Shown: positions 2,930 through 21,985 of the stretch, piece by piece
Position numbering within the stretch: position 1 is the stretch's first letter
How the letters are laid out: every line of letters begins with the position of its first letter
Virus record (IMG/VR): IMGVR_UViG_3300010373_000025
Location: 1-39,804 of that record
Length of the DNA stretch: 39,804 nt
Reading direction: 5' to 3' (one strand)
Source of the DNA: a virus
The notes under the pieces: model-generated
The model's database searches: none
What the model saw: the letters and a program-made list of their open reading frames with translations, nothing else
What the model was told of the DNA's origin: nothing
Translations under genes and position numbers: made by a program

Positions 2930-3757
2930 ATGCCACGAGAATTAGAGCAACTTTCACAAAATGATCCGAGATGGAAAGATTTGCATTTAGGACTTTCTGA
3001 TTCGGTAACTTTGGGACAAGCCGGCTGTTTGGTAACTTCCTTCTCAGTACTTGCCTATTACTACAACCAACAAATAACTCCCGATCAAATGAACCAAATG
3101 TTAATCAATGCTAACTTGTTTGCTAATCAAGACTTAATTAGTAGTGATGACGATTTAGGAAAACTTTTTCCAGACATTAAATATCTGCAGACAAATCACT
3201 ATGAAAATGCCCCTGCAGACTTGTCATTACTAAAGGATCTAGTCAGTGATCTAACTAAGTGTGTGATTGTAGAAATTGACTTAGGAAACGGCCAAGTACA
3301 CTTTACCCCTGTTCTTGCCAGTGACGGGTCTAGTGTAACGATTATGAACGTGTGGAACGGGCAGGACGAAAGTTTAAATACAGTCTATGGTGATCCAGAA
3401 ACTAAAATACTTAAATACATTGTCTATCAAGGAACTGTGGCACAAGATCCAGCACCTGACACAGTAATGGAAATAGAGCAAAAAGACTACATAAAACTTA
3501 TGCAAAAGTCTGAGGAATTAGATAAAATAGGTCAAAAGTTAAACTTCACACAGCAAGATATAGATACCCTAGGCTTTTCAGATAAAGTCATACAAAAGTT
3601 TGAAGACCTGCAAAACGCACAAATTAGCACTCCTACCCCACCAGTCGCAGAGCCTGCCAGTGATGCAAATAGCTTGCCACAGCAACCTTTAACCCCATCC
3701 CAAACTACCCTATTGCAAAAGTTACTAGGTCTGATAGGATTTAAGTTAGGAGCATAA
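2930..3757 (+). CDS. C39-like cysteine peptidase, putative endolysin
   Basis: The 275-residue product begins with QNDPRW (10-15), the hallmark of C39-like papain-fold peptidases. It has the catalytic cysteine in GQAGCLVTS (Cys33), an EF-like helix pair that follows, a histidine in GQVHFTP (His124) and a downstream Asn/Asp in TIMNVWNG (about 139-143). These form the Cys-His-Asn/Asp triad of the family. A Pro/Ala linker and a short hydrophobic C-terminal helix (LLGLIGFKL) follow. There is no signal peptide. The next gene is a membrane protein, so the pair reads as a lysis cassette in which this enzyme cuts peptidoglycan cross-links. A role in virion maturation is the alternative. Confidence 0.72.
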   Translation: MPRELEQLSQNDPRWKDLHLGLSDSVTLGQAGCLVTSFSVLAYYYNQQITPDQMNQMLINANLFANQDLISSDDDLGKLFPDIKYLQTNHYENAPADLSLLKDLVSDLTKCVIVEIDLGNGQVHFTPVLASDGSSVTIMNVWNGQDESLNTVYGDPETKILKYIVYQGTVAQDPAPDTVMEIEQKDYIKLMQKSEELDKIGQKLNFTQQDIDTLGFSDKVIQKFEDLQNAQISTPTPPVAEPASDANSLPQQPLTPSQTTLLQKLLGLIGFKLGA

Positions 3758-3760
3758 CAA

Positions 3761-4102
3761 ATGGATGCAATTTTTTCTCCCTACATAACTATTGCCGCAA
3801 ACTTACTTGTTGGGTTTCTAATGAGTAAAGGAATTGTCGATAACAGTAGCAGACAGGCAGCATACCAACTTATCAACAATGCCATAGCTGCTCTTTTAAC
3901 TCTTATCTTTGGTATTGCTTCAATCTACTACGCACACGAAACACATAAAGTTAATGTTCTTGCTAAAACGAATAGCCAACTAATAACCCTTCCTAGCACC
4001 TCTTCAGTAATTATGACAGGCCAAAAATCTACAGCTACTCAATTACCCCAAACTTTAAATATACAGCAAACAGGACTGCCATCAACCCCAGTAAGTGCCT
4101 AA
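3761..4102 (+). CDS. Holin-like membrane protein
   Basis: AGGAG precedes ATG 3761, only 3 bases after the peptidase gene. The 113-residue product has two hydrophobic segments (about 8-25 and 40-60, the second ALLTLIFGIASIYY), a short connecting stretch, then a long polar Ser/Thr/Gln tail. Size, topology and pairing with a cell-wall peptidase fit a class II-type holin. No specific holin family is recognised. Confidence 0.6.
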   Translation: MDAIFSPYITIAANLLVGFLMSKGIVDNSSRQAAYQLINNAIAALLTLIFGIASIYYAHETHKVNVLAKTNSQLITLPSTSSVIMTGQKSTATQLPQTLNIQQTGLPSTPVSA

Positions 4103-4166: not shown

Positions 4167-4195
4167 TTGACAAATGTTTTCACAGGTATTACGAT
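4167..4195 (+). promoter_or_regulatory. Consensus promoter for a putative small RNA
   Basis: TTGACA (4167-4172), 17-base spacer, TACGAT (4190-4195). No start codon with a plausible gene follows; instead the transcript from about 4202 would fold and end at the large hairpin at 4247-4316. Confidence 0.6.
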
Positions 4196-4201
4196 AAGTA
4201 T

Positions 4202-4321
4202 GCTAACGGGTAAGCCGTTGGGTGTCGAAAGACGAAAAACAAAAGGAACTCCATTTTCGAGGGTGCGTGCAGAGTCTCTTTTGTACGCTCGGCGCACACC
4301 CCTGAAAATTGGAGTTTTTTT
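4202..4321 (+). ncRNA. Putative structured small RNA with intrinsic terminator (unit A)
   Basis: Downstream of a consensus promoter the segment forms AACGG-gtaag-CCGTT (4205-4219), a GTC-GAAA-GAC tetraloop hairpin (4224-4233) and a long terminator arm. In that arm AACTCCA/TGGAGTT plus TTTTC/GAAAA (4247-4258 with 4304-4316) is extended by GGGTG/CACCC, then a run of T from 4315. The arm tip is GC-rich against an AT-rich background. The unit is about 120 nt. No family is recognised; it could be a trans-acting RNA or a leader of the genes from 4367. Confidence 0.55.
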
Positions 4322-4726: not shown

Positions 4727-4914
4727 AAATAAAAGTTGTTACTAGAGATTGGATGCCTAAAAATGAGATTTGGTTTACAAATAATGACGTTCCTATAGAT
4801 ATATTCGACCAGACTATTGTGGAGAAAAATATTAAAGCTGGATTAATAAAGAAGGTAAAATTTATAACTAAATTCAAAAAGAGAAGATTTGGAAAATTAA
4901 AAGGTATTAAATAG
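4723..4914 (+). CDS. 63-residue basic hypothetical protein
   Basis: It starts in an ATGA overlap with the membrane peptide, with GAGAAAAG upstream. The product ends in a strongly basic tail (KFKKRRFGKLKG) after an alternating beta-like region, suggesting nucleic-acid or membrane-surface binding. Not recognised. Confidence 0.6.
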   Translation: MKIKVVTRDWMPKNEIWFTNNDVPIDIFDQTIVEKNIKAGLIKKVKFITKFKKRRFGKLKGIK

Positions 4915-5028
4915 CATAAATCCCCTTACTTTGAACGAGAAGGGGATTTATGCTTAGCAATCACAGATACAAATCTTTATTTCGAAACTAGCTCCGGTAA
5001 TACGGTTTACGGTTCCGGTCTGTAATTG
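4905..5028 (-). ncRNA. Putative minus-strand small RNA (unit B)
   Basis: A consensus promoter reads leftward and predicts a start near 5028. The RNA begins with AATTACAGA, which pairs with TCTGTGATT about 55 bases later (plus-strand 5019-5027 with 4959-4967, one G-U). Enclosed is a CCGG-bounded arm with GTAA/TTAC inside. The RNA then runs into the 15-bp hairpin at 4913-4954. No start codon with a credible reading frame lies within it. It is antisense to nothing annotated except the 3' end of the basic protein gene. Confidence 0.55.
4913..4954. terminator. 15-bp perfect hairpin, probable bidirectional terminator
   Basis: AGCATAAATCCCCTT (4913-4927) pairs perfectly with 4940-4954 around a 12-base loop. 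It directly follows the stop of the plus-strand gene and also ends minus-strand unit B. Neither side has a long T-run right after the stem, so efficiency is uncertain. Confidence 0.6.
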
Positions 5029-5034
5029 ATATAG

Positions 5035-5063
5035 ATAGTATCACAAAGAGGCTAGAATGTCAA
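5035..5063 (-). promoter_or_regulatory. Consensus minus-strand promoter (unit B)
   Basis: On the minus strand: TTGACA (5063-5058), 17-base spacer ending TGA, TACTAT (5040-5035). This combines a perfect -35 with an extended -10. Confidence 0.68.
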
Positions 5064-5111
5064 TATTTATTACTCATTGTTAAGAATTTAACATGACACA
5101 GCAGTCGAATT

Positions 5112-5450
5112 ATGAATTTAGGAGAAATATTACATAAAGAAAAAATTGAATTACTCCATTTTTGGGAAAGTTTTGAAGATGGTGAATCTACTATGGAAGA
5201 ACGACTTGCTGCTTTGAAATATTTAGCTGGAATTGTTTATTTTCATAGAAAAAAAAGTCTTAAACGACTTAGAAAACATTTTAATAAAAACTATAAAAAT
5301 ATGTTTAATCTTACATGTTTCGTTTGTGGTGAAAAATGCCAACATCGTCATCATATTATTCCTTTAGTTAATGGAGGTATTAATAGTAAGTTAAACCGAG
5401 TTCCCCTATGTCGAAACTGTCATATTAGTATCCATCCGTGGATGCAATGA
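5112..5450 (+). CDS. HNH endonuclease
   Basis: The 112-residue product has a helical, basic N-terminus (RKKSLKRLRKHF) and a C-terminal HNH domain. Zinc pair CFVCG is at about 73-77, RHHIIPLVNGG carries the HH core (about 83-93), and LCRNCH (about 102-107) gives the second zinc pair. The N-terminal extension is longer than in the minus-strand HNH gene, so the two are not close duplicates. Such small HNH proteins are commonly free-standing homing nucleases. It sits inside the small-RNA island. Confidence 0.85.
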   Translation: MNLGEILHKEKIELLHFWESFEDGESTMEERLAALKYLAGIVYFHRKKSLKRLRKHFNKNYKNMFNLTCFVCGEKCQHRHHIIPLVNGGINSKLNRVPLCRNCHISIHPWMQ

Positions 5451-5678
5451 TAGTTTGAGGTTCAGGGGAGCAGACCACCCGCCAGTCAAAAGATTTCGGC
5501 AATGCTGCACTATGACCGACTGACCGACGATGACGTTTTTGTAAAGAACTTGAGGACTACAAGTAACAACAAGAGTCCTGGGAGCTAGAGCATCATCAGA
5601 GGGAGGGAGAGAATAGGAGGGTAGACTAGGGGTAGGGGTTTCCACATATATAGAAATGTGGTATTTTTGGGTGGTAAT
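5451..5678 (+). other. GC-rich, structured intergenic region
   Basis: About 230 bases without a credible gene, distinctly richer in GC than its surroundings. It holds an AGGACT/AGTCCT stem (5552-5578), a G-run tract (about 5600-5640) with five runs of three or more G that could form a quadruplex, and a CCACAT/ATGTGG hairpin (5642-5661) followed by TATTTTT, terminator-like on the plus strand. No promoter is evident. It may be a further structured RNA or part of an origin. Confidence 0.4.
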
Positions 5679-5687
5679 TGATATAAT
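5679..5687 (+). promoter_or_regulatory. Perfect extended -10 promoter (unit C)
   Basis: TGATATAAT is TG-n-TATAAT, the strongest form of an extended -10 element, so no -35 is needed. It directs transcription into unit C. Confidence 0.65.
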
Positions 5688-5693
5688 ATTCGT

Positions 5694-5795
5694 ACTCTCC
5701 CTGGTTGAGGTAAAACCGATTACTGGAGGACTGTCTTAAATCTATATGTTAAATGTAGTGTAAAGGCCTTGAATAAAATCGAGGCCTTTTTTTTG
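5694..5795 (+). ncRNA. Putative ~100-nt small RNA with classic terminator (unit C)
   Basis: Starting about 7 bases after a perfect extended -10, the RNA has a 5' arm in which CTCC/GGAG (5697-5700 with 5725-5728) encloses GGTT/AACC (5703-5706 with 5714-5717). It ends at an 11-bp stem (5762-5772 with 5779-5789) with a six-base loop and eight T residues. No reading frame longer than a few codons is present. This is the clearest promoter-RNA-terminator unit of the island. Confidence 0.65.
5762..5794 (+). terminator. Intrinsic terminator of unit C
   Basis: Stem AAAGGCCTTGA paired with TCGAGGCCTTT (one G-U), loop ATAAAA, then T8. A textbook Rho-independent terminator. Confidence 0.85.
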
Positions 5796-5802
5796 TTTTT
5801 CG

Positions 5803-5832
5803 TTGCAAAATATGCTACATTGCACATATAAG
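5803..5832 (+). promoter_or_regulatory. Promoter of unit D with overlapping inverted repeat
   Basis: TTGCAA (5803-5808), 18-base spacer, TATAAG (5827-5832). The inverted repeat GCACAT-n7-ATGTGC (5822-5840) covers the -10 and start region and could be an operator. A second TATAAT at 5891-5896 has no -35. Confidence 0.45.
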
Positions 5833-5838
5833 TGATGT

Positions 5839-5986
5839 GCTAGAACTTCTCACTCTAGTGTCTTAGACCTTATAAAACGCCTTGAGAAAGTATAATTTTT
5901 AAATTTGGATAAATTCTAACAAACCATTTTGGTTTTGTTGGGCAGATGGGGTAGGTATCTAGTCGGTATCTACCCCTTTCTATTTT
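5839..5986 (+). ncRNA. Putative small RNA with terminator (unit D)
   Basis: The segment contains CTAGA/TCTAG and AACAAACC/GGTTTTGTT hairpins. It ends with a 12-bp stem, GGGGTAG/CTACCCC (5948-5954 with 5970-5976) extended inward by five further pairs, followed by TTTCTATTTT. No gene is encoded. The start is less certain than in unit C because two candidate -10 boxes exist (5827 and 5891). Confidence 0.45.
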
Positions 5987-6053
5987 CGGCAAACTTTACA
6001 GATTTTTTACACTTCTCTTACATTACTAGTCTTGAGCAATACAGTTTTCCCTA

Positions 6054-7912: not shown

Positions 7913-8152
7913 ATGAATAAATTTATAAAAATATCAGGTTATGATTTATGGAGCGGGAGCTGGAGCGGGAGCTGGAGCGGGAGCAGGAGCTGGAGCTGGA
8001 GCTGGAGCAGGAGCAGGAGCTGGAGCGGGAGCGGGAGCAGGAGCTGGAGCTGGAGCGGGAGCGGGAGCAGGAGCGCGAGCTGGAGCTGGAGCGGGAGCGG
8101 GAGCAGGAGCGGGAGCAGGAGCTGGAGCAGGAGCGGGAGCAGGAGCTATTAA
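7913..8152 (+). CDS. Possible Ser-Trp/Gly/Arg repeat protein (frame uncertain)
   Basis: From ATG 7913 the frame reads a short non-repetitive head (NKFIKISGYDLW) then alternating Ser with Gly, Trp or Arg to TAA 8152. All three plus-strand frames through the repeat are open. The alternatives are (Gly-Ala)n from ATG 7941, whose TAG at 8178-8180 overlaps the next start, and (Glu-Leu/Arg/Gln)n from 7948. The Ser frame is favoured only because its variable codon (GGG/TGG/AGG) matches the G/W/R variation in the 12-base repeat at 10234. No clear ribosome binding site decides. Confidence 0.3.
   Translation: MNKFIKISGYDLWSGSWSGSWSGSRSWSWSWSRSRSWSGSGSRSWSWSGSGSRSASWSWSGSGSRSGSRSWSRSGSRSY
7949..8146. 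repeat. 33-copy hexanucleotide tandem repeat NGGAGC
   Basis: Thirty-three uninterrupted units of NGGAGC, where N is G, T or A and never C; a single unit is GCGAGC. The strand is purine-rich and GC-rich in an AT-rich genome. The order of N is irregular, so this is not a simple clonal expansion of one unit. Confidence 0.95.
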
Positions 8153-8173
8153 TCACCGATCCAATTTAAAAAT

Positions 8174-9157
8174 ATGGTAGACAAGTATACGACTAAAAAA
8201 ACAAGAATTGCCTTGGTGCTTCTTCTTGTAACAATACTTTTTCTTTTTGTATTGTCAATACAGAAAACTAAAGCATTTACACCAGTACCCCCTCCTTCAC
8301 TTTCAGAGCTAGATACTGCAATTAGTAAGGCACAGACATATTACGAAGGCTTGTATCGACCTATGGGCAAAGATGGTGCAGTAGTTGCTGAATACTACAC
8401 AAAAAGTAAAAGTGTATATACAGTAAGACATGGCGTCATAGGCGGAATTTTTTATTACAGTTATATAAATGATACACAAAGAGAAAATGAGCTTTTAAAG
8501 TTTGTAACAAAATACGGCTTCAATCCTTTCAATGACGATCACTCATTTGTTTGGACTGATAAGACAACTGCACCTATTGGCCTTCCCTACTCTACCCTTC
8601 CCTACCACGATTGTGATGTAACGCTGCCAACAGTAGGCAAAGTATCTGCCTACCACTCAAAGGTATGTAAGTTAGGACAAATTGGTATTGATAGCTATTT
8701 GTTACTCAGTCGCTTTGACCCCCTGCCAAGTGTAGAAGTTAGATTGCAGGATGTGGGGCAGGGGGTGGGCATATCTACAAAGTCTTTAGAAGACTTATAT
8801 GATAGTATAGGGTTTGGTTTGCCAATGTGTAGTCCATTAGGCTGCACCCATTATGCCTCAACAATTCGCACTGCACAGTTTGGCGAGTTGGAGATGCGTA
8901 TTAATCACATGCAATATGCTGACTCTGTAGCTCACTACTTACTTAAAGCTCAAAATGATAAAGGGGCTATTTATATTTCCTATGATAAAAACGGTAATTT
9001 AGTGTCTAACACTTCCCTAGCCTATTCACTTATTGATAAGGCACTTAACGACAAGCCATTAACACATGACTTTATCCCTTCTAATGCTGAGACAATGAAT
9101 GATAGTTTAGCTTTTCTCCTGCACTATCGTTGTGCTAGATATGGAGTGTGTAACTAA
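8174..9157 (+). CDS. Membrane-anchored or secreted protein of unknown function
   Basis: The 327-residue product has a basic N-terminus (YTTKKTR), a strong hydrophobic helix at about 12-31 (IALVLLLVTILFLFVLSI) and a Pro-rich junction, then a roughly 290-residue extracytoplasmic-looking domain. The domain is helical early on (SELDTAISKAQTYYEGLY) and contains five cysteines including HDCDV, VCKLG and CSPLGC, which might form disulfides outside the cell. Helical pairs suggest an alpha/alpha-toroid-like fold, but no catalytic motif is recognised. Possible roles are superinfection exclusion or surface alteration; both are speculative. Confidence 0.6.
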   Translation: MVDKYTTKKTRIALVLLLVTILFLFVLSIQKTKAFTPVPPPSLSELDTAISKAQTYYEGLYRPMGKDGAVVAEYYTKSKSVYTVRHGVIGGIFYYSYINDTQRENELLKFVTKYGFNPFNDDHSFVWTDKTTAPIGLPYSTLPYHDCDVTLPTVGKVSAYHSKVCKLGQIGIDSYLLLSRFDPLPSVEVRLQDVGQGVGISTKSLEDLYDSIGFGLPMCSPLGCTHYASTIRTAQFGELEMRINHMQYADSVAHYLLKAQNDKGAIYISYDKNGNLVSNTSLAYSLIDKALNDKPLTHDFIPSNAETMNDSLAFLLHYRCARYGVCN

Positions 9158-10014: not shown

Positions 10015-11235
10015 ATGATAGAAAAATTAACACCAACTCAAGAAAAATTGATTAAAAAAACGAGAAATGAATGGTTGAATAGGTTCTTTTCTTGCAAGAA
10101 TAGAACAAATAGAAAACAAGCAAAAAAATCTATTGAATGGTTATATAAACTGGCAGGGTTAGAAAAGCCGATGGTTATATTTCTTGATTCTCCTTTGGGA
10201 TCTCAGTATGGAGCTAATATGCTTAAATCCGCTCAAGTAGGGGATCAAGTAAGGGCTCAAGTAAGGGCTCAAGTAAGGGCTCAAGTAGGGGATCAAGTAG
10301 GGGCTCAAGTATGGGCTCAAGTAAGGGCTCAAGTAGGGGATCAAGTAGGGGCTCAAGTAGGGGCTCAAGTAGGGGATCAAGTAGGGGATCAAGTAAGGGA
10401 TCAAGTAGGGGATCAAGTAAGGGATCAAGTAGGGGCTCAAGTATGGGCTCAAGTAAGGGCTCAAGTAGGGGATCAAGTAGGGGCTCAAGTAGGGGCTCAA
10501 GTAGGGGCTCAAGTAGGGGCTCAAGTAAGGGCTCAAGTAGGGGATCAAGTATGGGATCAACAACTTGAATTTTTTAATACTGGATATTATTACTATGGAT
10601 CTGTTTGTGATTACGGATGGGCTGCTTTTTATGAATATTTTAATTCAATTGGCGTAAAGTATCCTAAAGATTTACTTGAAAGATTTAATAACTTTGCCTT
10701 CCTGCTTAAATCTAATATTTATGATCTCATCATGTTAAAGGGTGTATGTATTGTTTCGGATATGCCAACGGCTATTAAGAGAGATTCAGACAATAGACTC
10801 CATAACGCAGAAGGTGCAGCAATAGAATTTAAAGACGGATATAAACTCTTTTTCTATCATGGAATTGCAGTAAAAGAAGAATGGTTGACCCATCCAGAAA
10901 AACTTAGTAAGAAGGATTGGTTAGAAGAGGAGAATTTAGAAAAGCGTAGAATTATTCAAGAACTAATGGGAGACAGCTTTCCTAAGAAAATAGGCTCAAA
11001 ACTTATTGCTAAACCTTCTAAAGAATTTAAAGAAAAACATCATCTTTTAGGATTATATGAGGTCGAGCTTCCAAAAGATCCAGAGAAAATAGCCCACTAT
11101 GTCAGAGTAAGAGATCATTCCAGCAAGCGTGAATACTACTTAAGAGTTGATCCCAAGATTCAGGATGCAGATAAAGCTCTCGCATGGACTTTTGGCAAAA
11201 CTAAAGAAGAATATAAGCCAATTAGTGAAACATGA
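10015..11235 (+). CDS. DUF6745-type protein with 27 four-residue repeats
   Basis: The 406-residue protein has a basic helical head (1-72), a tract of 27 units of Q-V-[G/R/W]-[D/A] (74-181), and a C-terminal domain (182-406). That domain includes YGWAAFYEYF, RLHNAEGAAIEFKDGYKLFFYHG and a closing ALAWTFGKTKEEYKPISET. These segments match the DUF6745 family as I know it from bacteria; its biochemical role is unknown. The start at ATG 10015 is preferred to TTG 10006 because it directly follows the previous stop. The repeat should form a solenoid or elongated helix and varies in copy number in relatives. Confidence 0.8.
   Translation: MIEKLTPTQEKLIKKTRNEWLNRFFSCKNRTNRKQAKKSIEWLYKLAGLEKPMVIFLDSPLGSQYGANMLKSAQVGDQVRAQVRAQVRAQVGDQVGAQVWAQVRAQVGDQVGAQVGAQVGDQVGDQVRDQVGDQVRDQVGAQVWAQVRAQVGDQVGAQVGAQVGAQVGAQVRAQVGDQVWDQQLEFFNTGYYYYGSVCDYGWAAFYEYFNSIGVKYPKDLLERFNNFAFLLKSNIYDLIMLKGVCIVSDMPTAIKRDSDNRLHNAEGAAIEFKDGYKLFFYHGIAVKEEWLTHPEKLSKKDWLEEENLEKRRIIQELMGDSFPKKIGSKLIAKPSKEFKEKHHLLGLYEVELPKDPEKIAHYVRVRDHSSKREYYLRVDPKIQDADKALAWTFGKTKEEYKPISET
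10234..10557 (+). repeat. 27-copy 12-bp coding tandem repeat
   Basis: Unit CAAGTANGGGMT, where N is G, A or T (never C) and M is A or C. All other ten positions are invariant in all 27 copies, so every difference changes the amino acid and none is silent. A block of five units (WA RA GD GA GA) recurs 11 units apart, showing higher-order duplication. Confidence 0.97.
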
Positions 11236-11236
11236 T

Positions 11237-11680
11237 ATGAAAACAACTGATTATATAAATAGCAAGGAATTTAACGAAGAATTGGAGAACTTTGAGGATG
11301 CTCTCACATACAGAGAAGCAGATATAAGAAATGCAGGGCGTGAAAGGTTTATTGCCTTCCTTTCCCAAACCATAGCAAAAGTAAAAGCAGAAGAGAGGGA
11401 AAGGATAAAAGAAAACATAGGGCAACTTAGACAGTGGTTAAATGAAGATAGAATCACAGATCCTAAGAAAATGGTTACAAATGAACAAATAGAATATATG
11501 CTCTCTACCAGTGAGGGGGAAGAAGGGAGGAATATGAATCATAAAGAAAAAGTAAAACTAGCTAAGAAGTTATCAGGCAGGCATACACGCCATTTTGAGA
11601 GTCCTGAGTGGCAAGCACACAAGGAAGCAATTGCAAGGAAAGTTGAGAAAAGAGAATTAAAATCAAAAAAGGTTCTTTAA
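11237..11680 (+). CDS. 147-residue helical hypothetical protein
   Basis: ATG 11237 lies one base after the DUF6745 gene stop; a longer frame from 11147 is only a shadow inside that gene. The product is charged and helical (ELENFEDALTYREAD, KAEERERIKENIGQLRQWL). It ends in a basic segment starting at MNHKEKVKLAKKLSG that might be separately initiated from ATG 11534. A similar HNDKVKLARQ opening occurs in the small gene at 18343. Unknown function. Confidence 0.65.
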   Translation: MKTTDYINSKEFNEELENFEDALTYREADIRNAGRERFIAFLSQTIAKVKAEERERIKENIGQLRQWLNEDRITDPKKMVTNEQIEYMLSTSEGEEGRNMNHKEKVKLAKKLSGRHTRHFESPEWQAHKEAIARKVEKRELKSKKVL

Positions 11681-11702
11681 AATATATACCAGTAGATTTA
11701 CT

Positions 11703-11960
11703 AGGAGATATGGGGACGACCGAACTTTAACTGTGGATGGCAGCCATTACAGAAGTCCCGAACGTATCTCCTCGCAAGTCTGATTGGAGAGGGTTTGATA
11801 GGTCTGGAAGCTAGGGAATTATCCCTAGATGAGTAATTGTCCTTCAAAATAGCGGTAAGGGAAAAAGGACATGCAACTGTCGTGAGGCGTTGTAGTTACC
11901 ACACTCGCTATCTCTACGTGCAACTCGTAGCAGACCTATCAAGCTCTTTACAGGGCTTGG
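11703..11960 (+). ncRNA. Large multi-branched putative structured RNA
   Basis: About 260 bases with no credible gene. Domain 1: AGGAGATA/TATCTCCT (11703-11710 with 11765-11772), inner GGGAC/GTCCC (11713-11717 with 11755-11759), tip CTGT/ACAG and ATGG/CCAT (11731-11752). Domain 2: a perfect 10-bp closing stem (11797-11806 with 11931-11940) around four hairpins: CTAGGGA/TCCCTAG (11811-11828), GTCCTT/AAGGAC (11839-11870), GCAAC/GTTGT (11873-11893) and CTACG/CGTAG (11914-11930). AAGCTC/GGGCTT follows at about 11941-11958. No own promoter or T-run is obvious. It matches neither tmRNA nor RNase P as far as I can tell. Confidence 0.6.
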
Positions 11961-11972
11961 GGGTAGATAAGT

Positions 11973-12188
11973 ATGAAAAGACACAAGTTTTTAGATATGT
12001 TTCATTGCCCAACGTGTTTTGATATTTCAGTTAGGAGGATAGTAAAGACTGGGGAAAAACAAATATTGCAATCTAATTATTATTTAGTATCACCAGTTCA
12101 GTATAGGGCTTGTAAAAAATATGGATTTCCAGAAGGATTGATGCATACAAATGAGTTTTTAGCCCAACAGAAAGAGAAAATGAAATGA
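11973..12188 (+). CDS. 71-residue zinc-finger-like protein
   Basis: ATG 11973 is preceded by the G-rich TTGGGGGTAG immediately after the structured RNA. CPTC (12-15) provides one zinc half-site; a later single Cys (ACKKYG) may contribute. Basic, with a Gln/Lys C-terminus. The stop overlaps the next start (ATGAAATGA). Unknown function. Confidence 0.55.
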   Translation: MKRHKFLDMFHCPTCFDISVRRIVKTGEKQILQSNYYLVSPVQYRACKKYGFPEGLMHTNEFLAQQKEKMK

Positions 12189-12339: not shown

Positions 12340-12546
12340 ATGATTTTACAAATACTTAAAAAGAAAGACGACCCATTAGCATTACGCATCTCCATTGGTG
12401 GTAATCAAAAGCAAGCGTATTTGGTATATCGTGGGGATTTGGCAAAGATAAAATTATTACTGGATGAAGTAAATGAGAGATTGAAACAATTACCTAGTAG
12501 CGAAGAGCCAGGAATATCGCCAGATGATGGTAAGAAGTTCGCATGA
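12340..12546 (+). CDS. 68-residue hypothetical protein
   Basis: AGGAGAAG precedes ATG 12340; an upstream extension to 12280 lies in the previous gene. The pattern LRISIGGNQKQAYLVYRGD then KIKLLLDEVNERLK is a beta-strand pair plus helix. The stop overlaps an upstream in-frame ATG of the Acb2/Tad1-like gene, indicating co-expression. Unknown; a DNA-binding fold is possible. Confidence 0.65.
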   Translation: MILQILKKKDDPLALRISIGGNQKQAYLVYRGDLAKIKLLLDEVNERLKQLPSSEEPGISPDDGKKFA

Positions 12547-12560
12547 GAGGGGGTGAAAAC

Positions 12561-12800
12561 ATGGAAGATAAAACAAATACAAAATTAGATCCACAAGCAG
12601 CTTTGCATGAGGAACGAAAAAATATTGATGCTCGTATTCAAGCAGTGAATGCTTTGAAAACACAGGATCAATTTAAAACAGCAGGTAGAGAAATCGCACT
12701 TGCTTATACACATCTTCAAGAAGCAAAGATGTGGTTAGGTCAAGCACTTGGAATGATAGGAAGTGAATTGCCAGCACAATTTGCTGATAAAGCTGAGTAG
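12561..12800 (+). CDS. Acb2/Tad1-like cyclic-nucleotide sponge (copy 1)
   Basis: The 79-residue product is two helices, ERKNIDARIQAVNAL and then AGREIALAYTHLQEAKMWL with GQALG. The R-x3-A-x2-L-x2-A-x-M-W-L pattern is that of the Acb2/Tad1 hairpin domain. Acb2 and Tad1 are phage proteins that bind immune signals (cyclic oligonucleotides of CBASS, gcADPR of Thoeris) and so block abortive infection. GAGGGGGTG before ATG 12561 sets the start. A second copy lies at 21734. Family assignment is from the motif only. Confidence 0.7.
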   Translation: MEDKTNTKLDPQAALHEERKNIDARIQAVNALKTQDQFKTAGREIALAYTHLQEAKMWLGQALGMIGSELPAQFADKAE

Positions 12801-21374: not shown

Positions 21375-21734
21375 ATGAAAAAATCTCAAACTCTTCTTAA
21401 AAGTGGAACAAGCAAACAATTCGATAAGTTAAACGAAGGAGATTTAGTCTTTGCTTTCCAATGCAACCGCTTAGAAAAAGGAAACGACCAATATCAACTT
21501 GAAACAAATATGGATTGGTCTTTTGATGATCCAACCACAAACGAGGAAGTAAAAAGTTTTATTGGAAGTGTTTTATCTAGTATTGAGGACGTTTTTGGTG
21601 AAAAGATGATAACTGAAGCAATTTTACATTATGCACAGGAAAGAAATCATTTAATTATAACTCCACATGGCGTGGCTCTCAATTTTAAAAGTAAAGGCTT
21701 AAAATTTAAAGATTGGAAGGGGGGTGAAAAATAA
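21375..21734 (+). CDS. 119-residue hypothetical protein
   Basis: Leader of about 2-3 nt predicted. Mixed alpha/beta product (GDLVFAFQCNRLEKG, EVKSFIGSVLSSIEDVFGEKM) with a basic end. It overlaps the second Acb2/Tad1-like gene by TAATG, as the first copy also follows a small gene. The shared promoter suggests a two-gene accessory unit inserted between portal and scaffold. Confidence 0.65.
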   Translation: MKKSQTLLKSGTSKQFDKLNEGDLVFAFQCNRLEKGNDQYQLETNMDWSFDDPTTNEEVKSFIGSVLSSIEDVFGEKMITEAILHYAQERNHLIITPHGVALNFKSKGLKFKDWKGGEK

Positions 21735-21985
21735 TGTCAGACACAATGGGAATAGATGTAAAGGAATTACTACATGCTGAAAGAAAATTGATTGATGAAC
21801 GCATCAATGCAGTAAGTCTTTTGAAAAGTAATGAAGGTTTGAAATCAGCAGGTAGAGAAATCGCTTTATCCTATACACACTTGCAAGAAGCAAAGATGTG
21901 GTTAGGACAAGCTCTCGGAATGGTAGGAAGTGTCTTACCACAAGAGTTTGCTGATAAAGCAGAAAATGGTCAACCTGTAAAGTAG
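21734..21985 (+). CDS. Acb2/Tad1-like cyclic-nucleotide sponge (copy 2)
   Basis: The 83-residue product matches copy 1 over its length: ELLHAERKLIDERINAV, then AGREIALSYTHLQEAKMWL with GQALGM and FADKAE, and a short extra tail. The same helical-hairpin motif supports the Acb2/Tad1 family of immune-signal sponges. GGGGGTGAAAA is upstream, nearly the same as at copy 1. The copies differ most at the N-terminus and in the loop between helices, as expected if they bind different nucleotide signals or co-assemble. Confidence 0.7.
   Translation: MSDTMGIDVKELLHAERKLIDERINAVSLLKSNEGLKSAGREIALSYTHLQEAKMWLGQALGMVGSVLPQEFADKAENGQPVK

Follow-up and report, generated by a model that had tools for sequence, protein, structure and literature searches.

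GOLLD and ROOL RNAs are phage- and prophage-encoded, highly structured non-coding RNAs of unknown function, with multiple pseudoknots in ROOL and lengths above 800 nt in many GOLLD RNAs (PMC12286853). The RNA described here, found in a 39,804-base viral record of a tailed phage that was analyzed at its full length (the window), is likewise phage-encoded, non-coding and, as predicted, elaborately structured; unlike GOLLD and ROOL, it matches neither model, lies within an operon gap and is far shorter than GOLLD, and while those RNAs often occur near tRNA islands in phages, no tRNA was detected in the 39.8-kb window. A further trait of GOLLD and ROOL is a homo-oligomeric cage. The raiA motif RNA, at about 200 nt, is similar in size and also elaborately folded. 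Structured leaders and riboswitches are found, as is this RNA, immediately before a start codon of the same orientation, and they share with it the multibranch fold, pseudoknot and competing 3' pairings predicted here; no known riboswitch model matches, neither at gathering score nor at E values up to 10.

Genomic setting

The window phage encodes a Terminase_3-type large subunit and an Erf-like annealing protein besides a ParB-like protein, a VRR-NUC-like protein and several HNH genes scattered through the phage. The closest annotated phage found, MW202566 (Manatee Spring), is distant, with identities of 32% for the terminase and 27% for a structural protein. The structured gap (11681-11972) separates the small plus-strand ORFs c (11237-11680) and d, and we propose that it is part of a small-gene operon. 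The first-pass annotation had placed its structures in non-coding, relatively GC-rich sequence, which was confirmed: the gap contains no ORF of at least 62 aa and has a GC content of 0.46 as compared to about 0.35 in its surroundings. Translation of a mini-ORF of six codons at 11710-11730, preceded by AGGAG just 2 nt upstream, was judged unlikely. ORF d, the supposed regulated gene, showed no protein family match and no clear relatives, which makes the supposed target uncertain. An Acb2-like anti-CBASS gene lies several hundred bases downstream of the RNA; it is one of two genes of the Acb2/Tad1-hairpin-like (anti-CBASS) type in the window, the first at 12543-12800 (PF24729, E 2e-6) and the second at 21734-21985, the latter matching the same relative genes in the contigs L110 and L112.

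Further elements were observed elsewhere in the window. A small-RNA-like unit at 4167-4320 combines TTGACA...TACGAT with a predicted transcript of about 130 nt that ends in a long hairpin and a T run; a perfect 15-bp hairpin (AGCATAAATCCCCTT/AAGGGGATTTATGCT) occupies a gap at 4913-4954; and a long non-coding stretch of raised GC content after an HNH gene (5455-5990) contains hairpins followed by T runs. Repeat proteins are encoded at 7941-8180 and 10150-10570, with (GA)n and, before a DUF6745 domain, QVGDQV/QVRAQV repeats.

Predicted fold and its significance

Folding of 11690-11970 (281 nt) yielded -103.1 kcal/mol on the plus strand (z = -5.18), which none of 200 shuffles equalled, as compared to -85.1 kcal/mol (z -4.43) on the minus strand. 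The plus strand is favoured due to this better fold and because three G-U pairs of the long-range helix P2 would be mispaired on the minus strand. The RNA gap had clearly the lowest z (-5.3, followed by -2.7) of all non-coding gaps in the window. By contrast, three coding stretches reached z of -4.7 to -5.9 when the window was scanned in stretches of 280 nt with 12 shuffles each, as compared to -4.5 over the RNA; fold energy alone is thus not decisive, and the claim rests on specific helices. Most of these had ensemble probabilities of 0.9-0.99 in the nested model. The RNA, of about 250-270 nt, is organized in two domains, namely a stacked hairpin arm of 70 nt and a domain of 162 nt closed by a 19-bp helix (Table 1).

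Table 1. Coordinates of the predicted RNA, its helices and the following gene in the window
Feature	Position	Strand	Description
Structured RNA, outer limits	11696-11968	+	fold z -5.18 for 11690-11970
P1, 5' domain	11703-11772	+	10-bp and 5-bp stacked arm with 9-bp tip hairpin
P1 10-bp stem	11703-11712/11763-11772	+	AGGAGAUAUG/CGUAUCUCCU; 10 pairs including one G-U; pair probability 0.99
P1 5-bp stem	11713-11717/11755-11759	+	GGGAC/GUCCC
P1 tip	11731-11752	+	9 bp
P2 5' strand	11788-11806	+	19-bp long-range helix; pair probability 0.985
P2 3' strand	11931-11949	+	19-bp long-range helix; pair probability 0.985
H1 hairpin	11811-11828	+	7 bp, AUUA loop, inside P2; probability 0.97
S1 pseudoknot stem	11838-11871 (11838-11844/11865-11871)	+	UGUCCUU/AAGGACA, 7 bp
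S2 pseudoknot stem	11849-11911 (11849-11854/11906-11911)	+	AUAGCG/CGCUAU, 6 Watson-Crick pairs; nested probability 0.90
H3 hairpin in pseudoknot	11872-11894	+	6 + 3 bp; GUGA, a GNRA-type loop; probability 0.96 (its five tested pairs)
H4 hairpin	11914-11930	+	5 bp; probability 0.54
ORF d	11973-12188	+	71 aa; begins just 3' of the RNA; supposed regulated gene

The 5' arm had been described as 8 + 5 bp plus a tip; arm and tip were recovered, with the stems corrected to 10 + 5 bp and a tip of 9 bp. Folded alone, P1 had a z of -3.8, and none of 150 shuffles was as good. Similarly, the reported perfect 10-bp stem over 125 bases exists, and it is in fact part of the continuous P2 helix of 19 consecutive pairs. 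To determine how often such stems arise, the 281-nt stretch was dinucleotide-shuffled 1000 times: a stem of at least 19 pairs did not occur (longest 18), and the 12 consecutive Watson-Crick pairs of P2 were matched in four shuffles. The P2 domain alone had a z of -4.8.

Within P2, the first-pass annotation had counted four hairpins; the elements are present, yet they are not four independent nested ones, since S1 and S2 cross. The loop of S1 contains the 5' strand of S2, the 3' strand of which is located 34 nt past S1, and the nested-only probability of S1 was as low as 0.05 because S2 excludes it in a nested model. S1 and S2 are likely to form an H-type pseudoknot of 7 + 6 Watson-Crick pairs around H3, as modelled with sterically reasonable loops of 4 nt, 10 nt, and the hairpin plus 11 nt; such a pseudoknot was present in 4 of 1000 interior shuffles. 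As read from the sequence, the loop of H4, UGCAACU, is a second copy of the 5' strand of H3.

The 3' end of the RNA falls at about 11949-11968. There is doubt about the outermost stem (11696-11702/11962-11968): it was predicted, as was a 7-bp stem (11775-11781/11953-11959), when the following gene was omitted, and with the first codons of d included the probabilities dropped to near 0 and to 0.02, respectively, so that 11703-11949 are the safe limits. The start region of ORF d is predicted to be paired; in the long-context fold it pairs with the first codons of d itself and not with the RNA, which counts against sequestration by the RNA. In the 3' part, the 7-bp stem competes with the pairing 11939-11947/11952-11960.

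Taken together, the modelled helices describe what appears to be a real, intricately folded RNA, with a fold from one sequence that is well supported against chance. The earlier view that its complexity exceeds that of a terminator and indicates a non-coding structured RNA is supported by the fold z and by the comparison of the helices with shuffles.

Search for families and relatives

A likeness to GOLLD, ROOL and raiA had been suggested together with an Infernal/Rfam search. This search returned no match to any family at gathering scores or at E values up to 10, the covariance models of GOLLD, ROOL, OLE, raiA and Intron_gpI included; moreover, with no tRNA in the window and a length below that of GOLLD, the likeness was not borne out. 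ARAGORN detected no tmRNA, and tRNA-like ends together with a tag frame were not found. No homologue of the RNA was detected by blastn among phages and plasmids.

Relatives of the window phage were collected as 37 viral contigs via a terminase alignment and three more via a mixed-protein query, and a second scan with concatenated proteins for contigs covering the RNA region found nothing. The contig L002, which at 84% terminase identity is the nearest relative, does not include the RNA region. The contig L111 is syntenic (Erf 61%, VRR-NUC 60% and ParB-like 63% identity) and has a non-coding gap (4996-5270) at the equivalent place. This gap is co-linear with the RNA by eye; nevertheless, it was rejected as a homologue, the alignment score of 36 being at the level of shuffles (32 ± 6), the match to a single-sequence covariance model of 11786-11951 (R1) reaching 5.0 bits and an E value of 7.8, and its fold being only mildly significant (best part z -2.2). 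The gap includes a GC-rich, non-coding element (5126-5250) in which a closing stem is combined with three hairpins. L111 also encodes an NTGNWNTGNS repeat protein (3507-3810), and these repeats and the QVGDQV/QVRAQV repeats of the window take similar places, ahead of the gap or the RNA. Searched in the related contigs, R1 matched significantly only the window itself, a weak negative for a one-sequence model and contigs of which many are fragments.

Other candidates were discarded. In about 790 genomes of two phyla, where a negative from the one-sequence model is weak as well, R1 matched once (L113), at a simple palindrome rich in GC. Viral contigs were searched for exact 15-18-mers taken from the RNA: the similarity around GATAGGTCTGGAAGCTAG in L007 stops within 22 nt, and 39 stretches with ATAGCGGTAAGGGAA and 25 with CTGTCGTGAGGCGTT do not align past the k-mer. 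A plus-strand look-alike found among the relatives with a stem-plus-pseudoknot descriptor (L057, 4476-4635) lies inside a coding gene and was attributed to chance. Gaps with a fold z of -6.5 to -7.6 were observed in four further contigs of related phages (L003 1223-1496, L058 1464-1863, L066 14058-14422 and L053 4295-4634); these are clusters of long hairpins, unlike the RNA of the window. The RNA is thus classified as an orphan, no relative having been found in phage and plasmid records, about 40 related viral contigs and about 790 genomes, and it is probably a new structured RNA of a general kind, i.e., phage structured non-coding RNA, that is already known.

Possible roles of the RNA

The most likely reading, which we put forward tentatively, is that this orphan RNA is a structured leader that acts in cis on the downstream early genes. 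Following this, we propose that the RNA would be transcribed within a polycistronic message, where it would occupy the entire intergenic gap and stop only a few bases short of the ORF d start codon, and that it may alter translation or stability of d and of the small genes behind it, including the Acb2-like anti-CBASS gene, possibly by a switch between the competing pairings near its 3' end. The cis role is favoured by the position of the RNA, which spans the gap and ends beside the start codon of d. The contig L110 counts against it: gene e and the Acb2-like gene, common to L110 and the window phage at about 81% identity, are retained there in the absence of such an RNA upstream of e, where genes are tightly packed.

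The self-contained fold would rather favour a role in trans, and a stable non-coding RNA cut from the operon transcript, serving, in the manner of other phage RNAs of unknown function, as a scaffold or as a decoy for an RNA-binding protein or defence system of the host, is a close rival, possible if somewhat doubtful. Its two domains with the pseudoknot and the GNRA loop are more elaborate than most leaders, and the Acb2-like anti-defence gene is near; on the other hand, no promoter or terminator of its own was convincing, and neither a protein partner nor a homologue nor a nearby tRNA array was found. That the RNA founds a new phage class, compact and two-domained with a pseudoknot around a GNRA hairpin, and acts in trans in infection (e.g., as an anti-defence decoy) or as a ribozyme, appears unlikely.

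RNase III sites segment the early mRNA of phage T7. A comparable element for processing or stability of the operon mRNA, in which P2 and the arm would be cut by host ribonucleases or shield from them, is consistent with a long helix in a polycistronic region without a convincing promoter or terminator, yet the pseudoknot and the interior hairpins exceed what a cleavage site needs, making this explanation rather improbable. Inverted repeats act in DNA as well, and some coding stretches fold equally well, which speaks for an origin, recombination or packaging site or for a stretch that is foldable by chance; as G-U pairs make one strand fold better and as shuffles seldom contain such a stem or pseudoknot, we consider this quite improbable. 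A mobile ribozyme or intron remnant (group I, group II or HDV-like) or a guide-type RNA (HEARO or omega RNA) is very unlikely: the crossing stems enclosing a hairpin give a ribozyme-like shape and recall the P3/P7/P8 order of group I introns, and HNH genes are scattered in the phage, but the crossing stems have their 5' strands only 4 nt apart, no Rfam match was obtained at E values up to 10, no P4-P6-like domain between the crossing stems, P7 consensus pair or domain V was seen on inspection, no broken gene was seen around the RNA, no IscB/TnpB-like gene is among the tested neighbours, and the HDV-like variant was rejected on inspection for having no room for P3 and no J4/2 signature.

Whether it acts as a cis leader or otherwise, the RNA is so far one sequence whose fold is well supported, and it offers a starting point for the mining of metagenomes more than a discovery; if confirmed, it would give an uncultured phage lineage a structured RNA outside the known classes, located several hundred bases upstream of an Acb2-like anti-CBASS gene.
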